From Diacronema lutheri (Eukaryota; Haptophyta; Pavlovophyceae; Pavlovales; Pavlovaceae): a stretch of 64,000 nt of DNA. The stretch's first letter is position 1. Every line of letters begins with the position of its first letter. A program made the position numbers and the translations under genes. The notes under the pieces are model-generated. The model ran no database searches. It was given only the letters and a program-made list of their open reading frames with translations, and was not told where the DNA came from. Of the stretch, positions 25,011 to 30,953 are shown piece after piece. Location: positions 62,001 through 126,000 of the forward strand of contig JAGTXO010000050.1 of the NCBI GenBank assembly GCA_019448385.1. The letters are read 5' to 3'.

Positions 25011-25229
25011 GGCAAGCAAGGCGCATTTGCGAAGCTCGGCCATATCAAGCGTAAGCCAGCGGCGATACGTGCCGCCTCCCCCTCCCCCCCCCACCAACGC
25101 CCCGCCGCGCGTGGCGGAAGGACGGCAGCCTTCGCCCTTCCGCCAAGCGGCGTGACGGGCGCGCGGCGTGGGGCTCCCAAGATGCAGGTGGAGCGCCCGC
25201 GCCGCGCGCGAGCGAGCCGCAGATGCGTC

Positions 25230-25296
25230 CACACGGTCGGGTCAACGAAAGCCACGCCAGGGGTCCTGGTCTGGTGGCCTCGCGTCATGGCGTGCG
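25230..25296 (-). promoter_or_regulatory. Candidate SECIS element in the 3' region of the selenoprotein-like gene
   Basis: About 110 nt after the TAG stop. On the minus strand, ATGAC (from 25288) opens a stem in which GAGGCCACCAG pairs, with small bulges, to CTGGCGTGGCTTTCG. The stem closes with TTGAC (to 25241), giving the AUGA/UGA pair of a SECIS quartet, and the apical loop contains ACC. A lower helix can form between CGCACG and CGTGTG. This is manual folding only; the apical AA is replaced by CC, a variant known from some SECIS elements. Confidence 0.45.
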
Positions 25297-25396
25297 CGCA
25301 ATTCGTAGGCAGGCGGACGGGTGGGGCGTGAGCGGCGGAGGCGGACCGAGGGCGCCGGCCAGACGCGCAAGCGGCACGGGCGTGCGAGCGGTGGGC

Positions 25397-26170
25397 CTAC
25401 AGCTCGTCCTTTGGCTCGTTCGGCGTCGCGAGCTGCTTCAGGACCGCACGCCGGCGCTCGAGCCAGTGGCGATCGTCGAGCAAGTCGGCCAGCGGCACGG
25501 CGTCGAGTGTCGCGAGCTGCTCGGCGGCCTCCTCTGGAGCCTTGGAGCGCCAGCTGGCCGCATACTCGGCCTCCGCGGGCGTGCAGTGCTCGCCCGAGCG
25601 CGCGTTGCAGATCCACGCGCCGCTCATCTCCGAGACGTAGTCAAGCATCGCCTGCGTCTGCCCGAGCTCGTCGCAGATGCGCTGCGCCGTCTTCTGGACG
25701 TACGCTTTGCCGCCGTAGCCCGTCGCGGTGTTGAAAAAGCGGTGGCTGGGCCAGCCGCCAGCTCCGGGCTTGAAATTGATGTCGAATGCCGACGTGACCT
25801 TGTCTGTCGCGAGGTTGATGTCGCCAAACGCCACCATGTCGGTGCGGTTGGCGAACGCCAGCGTGGCTGGGCGGCGCGGGATGGAGGAGCGCGGCGCGAG
25901 AGCGGCGCGGCGGCGTCAAGCGGCGGACGGTTCAATGTCGAGGCCGGGCGGACGGTTGAGTGCCGCACCTGCATTCCACGCTGGCGCCTGCTTGCTTCAT
26001 CACGATCACCCCTCCGACGCGATGATGCGCACGAAGAGCGTGCGCCCGTCAGAGATGGCGCTCTCGATCGTGCTCTCCACGTTGCTCGTCGTAAGCCGAG
26101 TCACGCGGTCCCAGTGACCGTCCAAGTAGGTGACGCCAAGGCCCAGGGCGAGGACGCGGAGGAGCGCCAT
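25397..26170 (-). CDS. Candidate selenoprotein: PDI/thioredoxin-like ER protein with three in-frame TGA codons and C-terminal KDEL
   Basis: 223 codons from exons 26170..25969 and 25866..25397 (donor GTGCGG, acceptor CAG, phase 1). Visible parts: signal peptide MALLRVLALGLG; thioredoxin-type beta strand LTTSNVESTI...GRTLFVRIIASEG; then codons 55-60 TGA TCG TGA TGA AGC AAG, then QAPAWNA, equivalent to the region after CxxC in PDI (CKxxKPAW). Exon 2 continues the fold (MVAFGDINLATDK) with a family-typical PGAGGWPSHRFFN, TGYGGKAY and CDELG, and the protein ends in KDEL for ER retention. If the TGAs are Sec, the active site reads U-S-U-U. Ending exon 1 before the TGAs breaks the phase with exon 2. 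A SECIS-like hairpin follows the stop. The alternative is a pseudogene or an assembly error at this spot. Confidence 0.6.
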
Positions 26171-26317
26171 GGCCCCGACCAGCGCTCTACCGATCAAAAG
26201 GCCCAACCAGGTTCAGAGAAACGGTCTCGGAAGTTTTTGAAAGTTGGGGCCTGATGCCAGCATGTCGCGCTCCGACATGCTGGCGTTTGACGACGCGCGC
26301 GCGCGCCGCCGCCACAC

Positions 26318-27251
26318 TCACGAGCCCTCGCTCGCAACGCTCAGCACCACGCTTGGCGCGGTCCCGCCGTCCCGCTGCGCCTCCGCTCTGGCCGTCACGA
26401 GCGGCTCATGGCTGCCCGCAGCCGCCTCAGCCTGGAGTTGCCGCACGAGCGCCTCGAGCTCAAACAGCTCCGGCTCGGCGCGCTCAGCGCCGAGCTGCGA
26501 ACGGAACGCCTCGCACAGCCGGAACCTGCGCACTCGCAGCCCGTGGTGACGCGGCGGCCGTAACGCACGTGCGGGTTACGCGCGCGCGCGCGCGCGCGCG
26601 CGTACGCGCGCAGGCCAGGGCGCGCGGCACGGCGCGCACAGGTATTCGTCGTTGCGCCCGCTCGGCCCGTGCGCGGCCGCAATGTTCGCGGCGACCATGA
26701 GCAGCGGCCGTTCGCCTGCCCAATTTGCGCCCTTTGGCGTGCCGACGTACTGTGATGCGTTTGGTGTCGCGAACCGTACGCGCCGCGTGCGAGGGCGTCA
26801 GGAGGCGGCGCCGCCTTGCAGCCCGGCAGAGTGCGCGGCGCGCGCGCGCGCGTACGGTGATGCACCGCTCGAGGAGCACGCCACCCTCGGCGTGCACGGG
26901 GAGCTGCAGCCTCGTGTCGTACTGCTTCTCGCGGTAGTCGAGGTCGGCGATGATGCGCGCGAGCTCTAACGCGTCGTCACTATCCGAGAGCCGCGCGGCG
27001 ATGCCCCAAACGCGCGCGCCTGGCGTCTCGTCGGGCACGAGCGTCACAACCGAACCGGGCGCTTCGGGCGTGCCCCTGTGGTCGGTGCTCGCCTGGCACC
27101 ACACGCGCCGATAGCCCTCCACGTACCCGACCAGCCGTGTGTTTTGCTCCGCTCCGGCGGGCGGCTTCCACACGAGCGAGCCGTAGCCAAAGACCCAGAG
27201 GCCCGAGAGCCCCGGCGCCGCGGAGAGCCCGACAGTCGTCGCCCCCCTCAT
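26318..27251 (-). CDS. CHAC: ChaC-like glutathione-specific gamma-glutamylcyclotransferase
   Basis: 237 aa from exons 27251..26856, 26749..26640 and 26525..26318 (donors GTACGC and GTGCGC). It degrades glutathione to 5-oxoproline and Cys-Gly in the cytosol. The glycine-loop motif LWVFGYGSLVWKP is at the N-terminus, followed by GYRRVWCQASTDHRGT, SVVTLVPD, and LDYREKQYD, which carries the catalytic Glu of ChaC enzymes. Splicing gives CIT-YVGTPKGANW and then AAAHGPSGRNDEYL-FRLCEAFRSQL, matching the conserved C-terminal ChaC blocks. The rest is a short acidic tail. It is divergent from the glycerol-3-phosphate dehydrogenase gene, with about 57 bp between the chosen start codons. Confidence 0.92.
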
Positions 27252-27308
27252 TTTGCCACCATGATTACCAACGGCACGGCACTCGAAGAGGTGGATCCGC
27301 CTCCCAGA

Positions 27309-29617
27309 ATGTTTCGGACCGCGCTGTTGCTCAGCGCGCTGTGCTCGCCGCGCGGGGGCGAATCGCTCGCCCGCGGCGTCCGGCCGCCGGGCGCCGCCAT
27401 GCGGCCCGCCCGTGCGCCGTTGGCGCGCGCGCGCGTCGATCTGCTCGCCGCGCGCGACGCCGGCGACGACGGCGAGCTGTGCGCCGCGACGTTGCCGACG
27501 CCGAGCTGGCAGCCGCCAGCGCGCGAGCAAATGCTCGAGCGCCTCGAGCGCGACGAGTTTGACGTGCTCGTCATCGGCGGCGGCGCGACCGGCGCGGGCG
27601 TCGCGATGGACGCGGCCACGCGTGGGCTGCGCGTCGCGCTCATCGAGCGCGGCGACTACTCGTCCGGAACATCGTCGCGCTCGACCAAGCTGATCCACGG
27701 CGGGCTGCGCTACCTGGCGCAGGCGTTCCAGTCGAAGATCCCGCCGCGCTCCATCCTCGACCTCATCATCCACCTGCGCTTCGAGCCCGACTACTTGCGG
27801 ATCGTCGCGGCCGACCTCGCCGAGCGCGCGTGGATGATCCAATCAGCTCCTTTCATGACGCGTGCGCTGCCGATGATGGTTCCGCTCTACCGTTGGTGGG
27901 AGGTGCCGCTCTTTTGGATCGTCGGCACGCTGTACGATCTGATCGCCGGCGCTGGGCGCGGCGTGCCGCCCTCGCGCATCGTGACGGTCGAGGAGGCGCG
28001 CTTCCAGGTGCCATTGCTCCGCCCGGAGGATCCGGACGGCAACCGGCTCGTCGGAGGCCTCGTCATCTACGACGGGCAGCAGAACGACGCGCGGATGGGG
28101 CTGCACATCGTGCTCACCGCCATCCAGGCCGGCGCGAGCTGCGCCAACTACGTCCAGGTCGAGGGCCTGCTCGATGCGTCGGGCGTCCCGTTCGCCGGCG
28201 ACGGGTCAGGCGACGGCGGCGCGATCGGCGGCGCGCGCGTGCGCGACCGCCGGACGGGCAAGACGTTCCACGTGCGCGCCAAGCAGGTGGTGAACGCGTG
28301 CGGCGTGTTCAGCGACGCCGTCCGCCAGATGGCGCAGCCCACCGCCGAGCCGATGATGGTGCCCTCCTACGGCACGCACGTGATTCTGCCCGACTACGCA
28401 ACGTCCGCGCAGATGGGGATGGTGTGGTTCACCAAGGACGGGCGCGTGCTTTACCTGCTGCCGTGGGAGGGCTCGGCGGTGGCGGGGACGACGGATGCGC
28501 CCGGCGAGATCTCCTTCGAGCCGCGCAGCAGCGATGGCGAGGTCGACTTTATCCTTGGCGAGTGCAACCGTGTCGTGCGCGAGCCGCTCCGCCGCGACGC
28601 CGTTCGATCCGCGTGGGCGGGCATCCGACCACTCGTGCGCAAGCCGGGCGCGGCGGCGGGTGACACGAAGGCGCTGTCGCGCGACCACGTCGTCGAGCGC
28701 CTCGGCACCGCACCCGACGCGCTCGTCACGATCGCGGGCGGCAAGTGGACGACCTACCGCAAGATGGCGGAGGACGCCGTCGATGTGTGCGTCGCGCACA
28801 ACCCGGCGCTCTCGCACGCGCGGCCGTGCGGCACGCTCGAGCGCAAGCTGGTCGGCTCGGACGAGACGGGCGAGATCTGCGACGGCTCCTTCGATCGGCT
28901 CATCGTCACGCTGCGAGACGACGTGGGAGTCGAGGCCGACGTCGCGCGCCACCTCAAGTTCAACTACGGCACGCGCGCGCTGCAGCTCGTCGAGATGGCC
29001 CGCGCCGAGCCGCACCGCTTTTGCGCCGACGACCGCTCGGGCGGGCGCGCGCGCCTGCGCCGGCTGCACGCGCAGTTCCCGCACGTCGATGCGGAGGTCG
29101 CCTTCGCCTGCCGGTACATGGCCAAGCGCCGCCGCGCGGCGCGCGCGGTGCGCTGCTCGTTGTGGCGGCGCGTTGCTCGCTGTCAAGCCCCGCGCGGCGG
29201 CGCGCTCATTTTGGCACGCCGACTGCGCGCCGTGCCGCGCTCGTCGCGCGTGCGCGCGCGCGTGCGCGCAGGTTTGAATTCGCGCAGACACCGTCCGACG
29301 TACTCGCCCAGCGCACGCGCCTGTGCTTCCTCGACGCGGACGCCGCGCTGTCCGTCCTGCCGCGAGTTGTCGAGATCATGGCCGAGGAGAAGGGGTGGAC
29401 CGAGGCGCACGCCGCGCAGGAGGCAGAGCAGGTGCGCCGCGCGCCGCGCGTTGAGCGCATCAGCGGCCACCGCCCACCCGATCGCTCACGCCGCCGCTGC
29501 CCTGCCGCACACCGCGTGCAGGCACGCGTCTTCCTCGAAGCAACCATGCGCGCGCCGCGCGACACGATCCCGGCGGCTCCGGCCGGCGTTGCCGTGCCAC
29601 AGGCAGCGGCAGTGTAG
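27309..29617 (+). CDS. GUT2: FAD-dependent glycerol-3-phosphate dehydrogenase, mitochondrial
   Basis: 686 aa from exons 27309..29113, 29272..29431 and 29522..29617 (donors GTACAT and GTGCGC). It oxidises glycerol-3-phosphate to DHAP and passes electrons to quinone at the inner mitochondrial membrane. The FAD-binding motif DVLVIGGGATGAGVAMDAATRG is near residue 83, followed by IERGDYSSGTSSRSTKLIHGGLRYL, SAPFMTRALPMMVPLY, DGQQNDARM, VVNACGVFSD and IAGGKWTTYRKMAEDAVD. Splicing gives ACR-FEFAQTPSDVLAQRTRLCFLD and VVEIMAEE, the C-terminal GlpD cap. There are no EF-hands, so it resembles the plant/yeast type. The N-terminal ~45 residues are basic and Ala-rich, fitting a presequence. An in-frame ATG at 27261 is an alternative start. 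Confidence 0.94.
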
Positions 29618-29626
29618 ATTCCAACC

Positions 29627-30953
29627 CTACAGTGCGCGGTACACGTCACGACCCGTCTCGTAGAGCTGACTGCGCTCGAGCAGCACCTCCACCGCCGTGC
29701 GGAGCGTTGCGTCGGACACGACGAACGCGTGCCGCTCGTGCTGCTGCAGCTCGGCGCGCAGCCGCGCAAGCGTGATATCACCATCGCACCTCCCCGCGGC
29801 GCGCGCCACGTGCCTCAGGATCGCCGGCAGCAGCTGTCGCTCCGCGTCGAAGGGAGCGTACGCGTCGGCGTCGGCGTCGACGAGCTCGAGAACGCCGTCG
29901 GTTTTGAGGCTGTGCACCGCGCGCTGCACGAGCGCCTTGGCGGCGGCGTGGAGCCGGTCGCCGCCGCCGCCATCGCCGCGCCGAGCCGCGCCGTCCGCTG
30001 TCGCGGCCGTCGCGGCCACGGGCGCGGCGGAGCGCAGCGCCTGCAGGAAGACTTCACACCGCTCGTCGAGCAGCGAACTGTATGCGAAGGAGAACGGCGG
30101 GCTGAGCGGGGGCGGCAGGCGCGCCTCGGTGGCGCACGCGACATCATTGCGGCACGACGCGGGCAGCGTCTCGTCGCCGTTCGCCGCCTCACACGCTGCG
30201 GCCGGCCGCTCGGGCGCTCGCCTTATCATCCGCACGATGGCGTCGCGCACCGCGACCAGCTCGGGCGGCGGGGCGACGTCGGCGCCAGTGAGCACGGCTT
30301 GCGCTGCGCGTGTCAATCCACCGTCGCCGCGCGGCCCGCCGCGCTCGCCGCGCTTGCACTTGACGAGCGCGGCGATGGTCGGCCGCGGATCGGCAGAGTA
30401 CACGCCACGCCACAGGCGCTCGAGCTCGAGCCAGCGGAGCGGCTCGGCGAGCGGGTCGCGCTCGGGGAGAATCTCGAATGCGACGAGCTGACGCTGCTCG
30501 CGAAACGTGCTCATCCGTCCCTTGACGCGCAGCAGGCTGCCGAGCGGCAGCTCGCGCTCGCGTCCTGCGGGGGGGTCGTTGCGCCAAGCGAGACAGTTCA
30601 CCACCGCAGAGCCGTCGTCAAGGGCGAAGAGCAGCCGATGGCCGCCTCGAGGGTTGGCCTTGACGTCGAAATCGACGACAACGCCCATCACGTCGAAGCG
30701 ACGCACGACGTGGTGGCCCAGGTGGTAGCACTCTGCGCGTCCGCGCGGGCTGCTGGCGTGAGCAGCGCGCGCGCGCGTGCGCGCACGCGTCGGCGCGGCG
30801 GCCGATGCGCGCGGGCGCGCCGGCGCGCGCGCCTTCCAGGCCTTCCACCTCGCGCAGCGCGAGCAGCTGTGAGATGCCCAGCATCGCGTGCGCTGGCCAG
30901 AGATCCTGCAGCGCGTACTCGTCGCGCGCGAGCGGACGTTCCCGCATTGCCAT
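29627..30953 (-). CDS. STN1: STN1-like OB-fold protein (CST telomere/replication complex)
   Basis: 402 aa from exons 30953..30849 and 30730..29627 (donor GTGGAA, acceptor AG, phase 0). STN1 binds single-stranded DNA with CTC1 and TEN1 and recruits Pol-alpha primase. Exon 1 gives an N-terminal helix (ALQDLWPAHAMLGISQLLALRE). The OB fold then reads FDVMGVVVDFDV, LLFALDDGSAVVNCLAWRND, LGSLLRVKGRMSTFREQRQLVAFEI and ERDPLAEPLRWLELERLW, matching plant and human STN1 order. The C-terminal ~200 residues have winged-helix-like blocks (LHAAAKALVQRAVHSLKTDGVLELV, RTAVEVLLERSQLYETG). The start is not certain: directly before ATG 30953 is TTTTTTTTCTCAG, which looks like a 3' splice site, so a 5'UTR or upstream coding intron is possible. 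Confidence 0.8.

Follow-up and report, generated by a model that had tools for sequence, protein, structure and literature searches.

A putative PDI_e-type gene with three neighbouring selenocysteine codons in the haptophyte Diacronema lutheri

Organization and reading frame of the gene

The window analysed here is a stretch of 64,000 nucleotides from Diacronema lutheri, a pavlovalean haptophyte. Its minus strand carries a small gene in which three TGA codons lie within four consecutive codons. The features of this gene, with positions counted from the first letter of the window, are as follows.

25969..26170, minus strand: exon 1, with an ATG start, a short hydrophobic N-terminus, a thioredoxin-type strand, the codons TGA-TCG-TGA-TGA, and the beginning of the post-active-site helix
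25997..26008, minus strand: the block TGA TCG TGA TGA, taken as U55 S56 U57 U58 from the in-frame reading and the alignment with a paralogue
25867..25968, minus strand: predicted 102-nt GT-AG intron with a fourth in-frame TGA inside it
25397..25866, minus strand: exon 2, with the remainder of the thioredoxin-like domain, GWP at the cis-Pro place, a cysteine-containing tail, KDEL, and a TAG stop codon
25241..25288, minus strand: candidate SECIS core, comprising ATGAC, a stem with one bulge, CAGA, an apical stem-loop, and TGAC, located 108 nt past the stop codon

When the minus strand is translated from 26170 to 25397 with TGA read as selenocysteine (Sec, U), the frame stays open to the terminal KDEL and the TAG stop, and U appears at residues 55, 57, 58, and 85. 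The fourth TGA, which is residue 85 of the unspliced frame, falls within the 102-nt putative intron, and removal of this intron would leave 672 nt in frame and a protein of 223 residues. The Sec block would then sit in the context FVRIIASEG-U-S-U-U-SKQAPAWN, upstream of the KDEL end. A first-pass annotation of this DNA, which gave no strand, had located the gene at the same coordinates with U at codons 55, 57, and 58, and had proposed that exon 1 joins exon 2 in phase when it is read through the TGA codons. Our analysis agrees with it on each of these points.

The GC content of the three codon positions follows a common profile in the part of exon 1 that precedes the TGA codons (0.61/0.48/0.91) and in exon 2 read in phase (0.64/0.48/0.90), and the intron (0.76/0.74/0.79) is unlike both exons. 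The part of exon 1 that follows the TGA codons gives 0.60/0.67/0.67, on 28 nt only, which is too short for judgement. The N-terminus of exon 1 was called a signal peptide by eye only. An AlphaFold model of the unspliced read-through protein, computed with C for U and without an alignment, has a mean pLDDT of 37.8 and was set aside. The DNA pattern TGA-N3-TGA-TGA-N3-AAR-N3-GCN-CC matches once in the 43.5-Mb assembly, at the window gene, and the reversed pattern does not match at all; across this assembly, the DNA pattern therefore reveals no second copy of the gene. The presence of three in-frame TGA codons within an active-site motif is a real observation, beyond chance.

The first-pass annotation had further claimed that splicing before the TGA codons cannot restore the phase, which turned out to be too strong a statement. 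When GT..AG combinations were enumerated by brute force, 13 proved to be in frame and free of stops while bypassing the TGA codons; a splice form of this sort would yield a Sec-free protein. However, every one of the 13 deletes the active site together with at least some of the strand that precedes it, and 12 of them require an intron besides the 102-nt one, which in two cases would be only 41-44 nt long. Furthermore, the residues flanking the block on either side match the thioredoxin pattern. We regard the omission of the TGA block by splicing as extremely improbable and favor the reading in which exon 1 is retained through its TGA codons.

Several other open reading frames lie at or near this gene. 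On the plus strand, a 343-residue ORF (25223-26254) runs across it, matches no Pfam family, and was interpreted as a shadow frame within GC-rich DNA. The Sec gene is preceded on its own strand by an ORF (26487-27842, minus strand) with a ChaC domain (Pfam E value of 1.2e-23); members of the ChaC family participate in glutathione breakdown. An ORF on the plus strand (27078-29660) encodes an FAD-dependent oxidoreductase with the C-terminal domain of alpha-glycerophosphate oxidase (DAO, DAO_C).

A cysteine paralogue and the identity of the protein

The same genome encodes a paralogue (G000:C69:1037405; L060/L065) that carries CGHC, a thioredoxin domain whose match exceeds the Pfam cut-off, and a similar cysteine-containing tail. 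Exon 2 alone finds this paralogue in a genome-wide search with an E value of 0.0038, and the spliced protein of the window gene, in which C was written for each Sec, aligns to it with 38.5 bits (E value of 1e-8 for a single comparison). The alignment covers the active site, the GxP region, and the tail, and it places CGHC on U-S-U-U so that the two Cys residues of the paralogue correspond to U55 and U58. With the Sec residues masked, the score is 34.3 bits, compared with 22.7 bits for the best of 300 shuffles. The masked alignment begins right after the Sec block, at PAW, and its register still puts the paralogue Cys residues on residues 55 and 58, which bears out the earlier proposal that the TGA codons occupy the place of CxxC. 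The N-terminal half alone, again with Sec masked, gives no alignment to the paralogue (E value of 4.7), and thus the tail supplies much of the paralogue score. The two proteins are alike in having a thioredoxin domain and the same tail, aligned across the active site. They are unlike in that the paralogue has CGHC rather than USUU, and its frame ends in QQLAK, without KDEL.

A weak match to the tail (E value of 0.157) also occurs in another gene of this genome (G000:C75:761114; L061), which by eye is of the FKBP type and ends in KQEL. The cysteine-containing tail on the window protein, on the CGHC paralogue, and on this FKBP-type protein may be one that ER folding enzymes have in common, judging from these alignments.

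The window protein matches no Pfam family at E values up to 10, PF00085 included, under HMMER filters that discard most weak matches. Among three matches to PDB sequences, none is significant; the best, a chain of DNAJC10 (ERdj5) in entry 3apq with an E value of 0.37, sets SEG-C-S-C-C (C typed for U) over SPG-C-S-H-C. IMG/VR holds no confirmed relative by protein (two stretches match the pattern, neither of them confirmed) and none by DNA pattern. In prokaryote genomes, all 41 of 41 pattern matches, when translated and judged by eye, are not PDI-like, and they were taken as chance.

The diverged sequence and the lack of a Pfam match might be expected of a decaying gene, in which the active-site codons of a Cys-type PDI-like protein have turned into stops and no read-through occurs. 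We consider such a pseudogene very unlikely. All three TGA codons are inside the active-site motif, no further premature stop is present among the 224 spliced codons, and the codon-position GC of exon 2 and the KDEL signal are both kept. Moreover, a SECIS-like hairpin is present, and a comparable three-Sec arrangement has been published for other haptophytes (PMC7539508). An intact gene whose TGA codons specify Sec is the reading that we carry forward.

A SECIS-like hairpin and the selenoprotein capacity of the genome

Rfam model SECIS_1 has no match at the locus and none across the whole genome, and because it is silent genome-wide, its silence at the locus says little. A stem descriptor (RTGAN, stem, bulge with AA or AGA, stem, NGAN) was used instead of a covariance model, since MAFFT alignments of SECIS elements were too poor. 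The references are hairpins located downstream of TGA-carrying genes of known families in the same genome, and eight of nine such genes have one. The ninth (L053, G000:C76:321292) was left out as a reference, its hairpin being located within the downstream open frame. This gene is SelM/Sep15-like and has one TGA; its open frame continues beyond the domain, and the sole SECIS-like hairpin reported for it is inside that frame.

The stem energy of the window hairpin is -13.7 kcal/mol, and those of the eight references range from -13.5 to -22.9 kcal/mol, which makes the window hairpin the second weakest of the nine. Its bulge carries AGA, a feature shared with one reference, the GPx element of L048, and the remaining seven carry AA. 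The cut-off of -13.5 corresponds to the weakest reference and was fixed with the value of the window hairpin already known; under the stricter cut-offs applied before it (-14 to -20), the hairpin fails. At -13.5, there are two other matches in the window, counting both strands, and two matches in 30 thioredoxin loci (196,656 bases, both strands), which represent a single site counted in both of two overlapping loci. When the 400 nt past the stop codon are shuffled, a match at this cut-off arises in 3 of 5000 cases, and a match with ATGAC in 0 of 5000, as scored with a descriptor slightly unlike that of the energy comparison (one minimum-distance rule was dropped). At a cut-off of -15, the corresponding counts are 4 and 0 of 2000. 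A looser, fold-based scan of the window yields two other hairpins with ATGAC, along with 14 with RTGA that reach -18.9 or lower, and the folding of a longer 3' stretch is no more stable than that of its own shuffles (z of 0.13). The case that the 3'-flank hairpin is a predicted, genome-typical SECIS-like element is good but not overwhelming.

The genome has nine tRNA-Sec genes above the Rfam cut-off, arranged in tandem with a repeat unit of ~184 bases (G000:C19:159090-160638; L002, L009). Seven copies are identical, and two differ from these by a one-base change. Three eukaryotes have been reported to have four tRNA-Sec copies bearing compensating changes, and the diatom Fragilariopsis cylindrus to have eleven non-identical tRNA-Sec predictions (PMC5330540). 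Judging from these published cases, many tRNA-Sec copies are unusual but have precedent. A SepSecS gene is present on contig C48. One in-frame TGA is carried by three of four matches to Rdx (SelW/SelT type), two of five to GPx, and four of five to Sep15/SelM. None of the 64 thioredoxin-family matches carries a stop, which indicates that this genome does not generally read TGA as sense. With tRNA-Sec, SepSecS, and TGA-carrying matches to these families, the signs are good that the genome is able to make selenoproteins, as far as gene content can tell.

Three UGA codons within four codons would nevertheless place a heavy load on Sec decoding. The recoding of UGA to Sec is inefficient, and perhaps most ribosomes terminate at U55, leaving the full-length form as a minor product. 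Against this stand the nine tRNA-Sec genes, as well as the speculation by the authors of PMC7539508 that algae of this kind have enough decoding capacity. Predominant termination at U55 is, in our estimation, improbable to much the same degree as gene decay, and we retain the reading in which all three UGA codons are decoded to give the full-length protein.

Proposed function and comparison with published PDI-like selenoproteins

It is highly probable that the gene belongs to PDI_e and that its product is a small thioredoxin-fold oxidoreductase of the ER, with Sec inserted at UGA codons 55, 57, and 58 and U-S-U-U replacing C-x-x-C. The 3'-flank hairpin would act as a SECIS element and recruit Sec-specific decoding factors, and KDEL would serve as the ER-retention signal. 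Once the protein is there, U55 and U58 would stand in for the CxxC pair and perform thiol/disulfide-type exchange as a selenol/diselenide pair, reacting with substrate disulfides via selenenylsulfide or diselenide states. U57, beside U58, would provide an extra selenol. It is also conceivable, though unlikely, that a vicinal diselenide between U57 and U58 joins with U55 to form a three-selenol redox, metal, or peroxide centre, backed by the amplified tRNA-Sec array. If true, such a centre would offer chemistry that is unavailable to two-Cys PDIs.

Adjacent UGA codons that are both decoded as Sec are unusual. The D. lutheri assembly was polished with long and short reads (PMC8379373). The compact genome, this gene, and the nine tandem tRNA-Sec genes would make a good test place for ribosomal decoding of three UGA codons within four codons, and the same genome is suited to asking what role three selenols might play in one active site.

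Jiang et al. 2020 (PMC7539508) divided algal PDI-like selenoproteins into groups PDI_a to PDI_e. Their PDI_e group has three neighbouring Sec residues in a GUGUU motif and comprises 12 genes in 10 algae, mainly Haptophyceae and SAR, for which they cite EST alignments and predicted SECIS elements. By the authors' own account, no earlier study had found two consecutive Sec residues. Within the literature collection searched, consecutive Sec in algal selenoproteins is mentioned by this paper alone, and PDI_e together with selenoprotein by it and by two others, titled on salmon and sheep. The term UxUU does not occur in the papers among the matches listed (10 of 212). Diacronema lutheri is named by none of the 15 papers listed among 8,196 literature matches, which does not establish absence. 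The main text of PMC7539508 contains neither 'Pavlov' nor 'Diacronema', and the main text of the D. lutheri NIVA-4/92 genome paper (PMC8379373) contains no word beginning with 'selen'. The first-pass annotation had described a multi-Sec, PDI-like ER protein with an undescribed catalytic site. The multi-Sec and PDI-like parts of this description stand, and the protein is probably retained in the ER. The claim that the site is undescribed fails because three-Sec GUGUU proteins were already reported as PDI_e by Jiang et al.

The classical PDI family (PF00085) has CxxC where the window protein has USUU at the aligned place; the latter may work like a PDI without being filed as a classical one. The algal groups PDI_a to PDI_d resemble the window protein in being PDI-like and Sec-bearing, but they have only one Sec as described in PMC7539508. 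PDI_e shares with the window gene three neighbouring Sec residues in a G-U-x-U-U arrangement, a PDI-like domain around them (recognized here via the paralogue), a SECIS element (predicted here), and a haptophyte lineage. It differs in its motif, which is GUGUU in PDI_e and GUSUU here, with Ser in place of Gly between the first two Sec residues. Compared by family description only, the window gene is best read as fitting PDI_e in motif, protein kind, and lineage. If this membership holds, then PDI_e extends to a gene in Pavlovales, an order unnamed in the main text of PMC7539508, and Ser would be tolerated between the first two Sec residues. The three-Sec PDI_e kind of algal protein is known, and the gene described here is best read as another member with one motif change.
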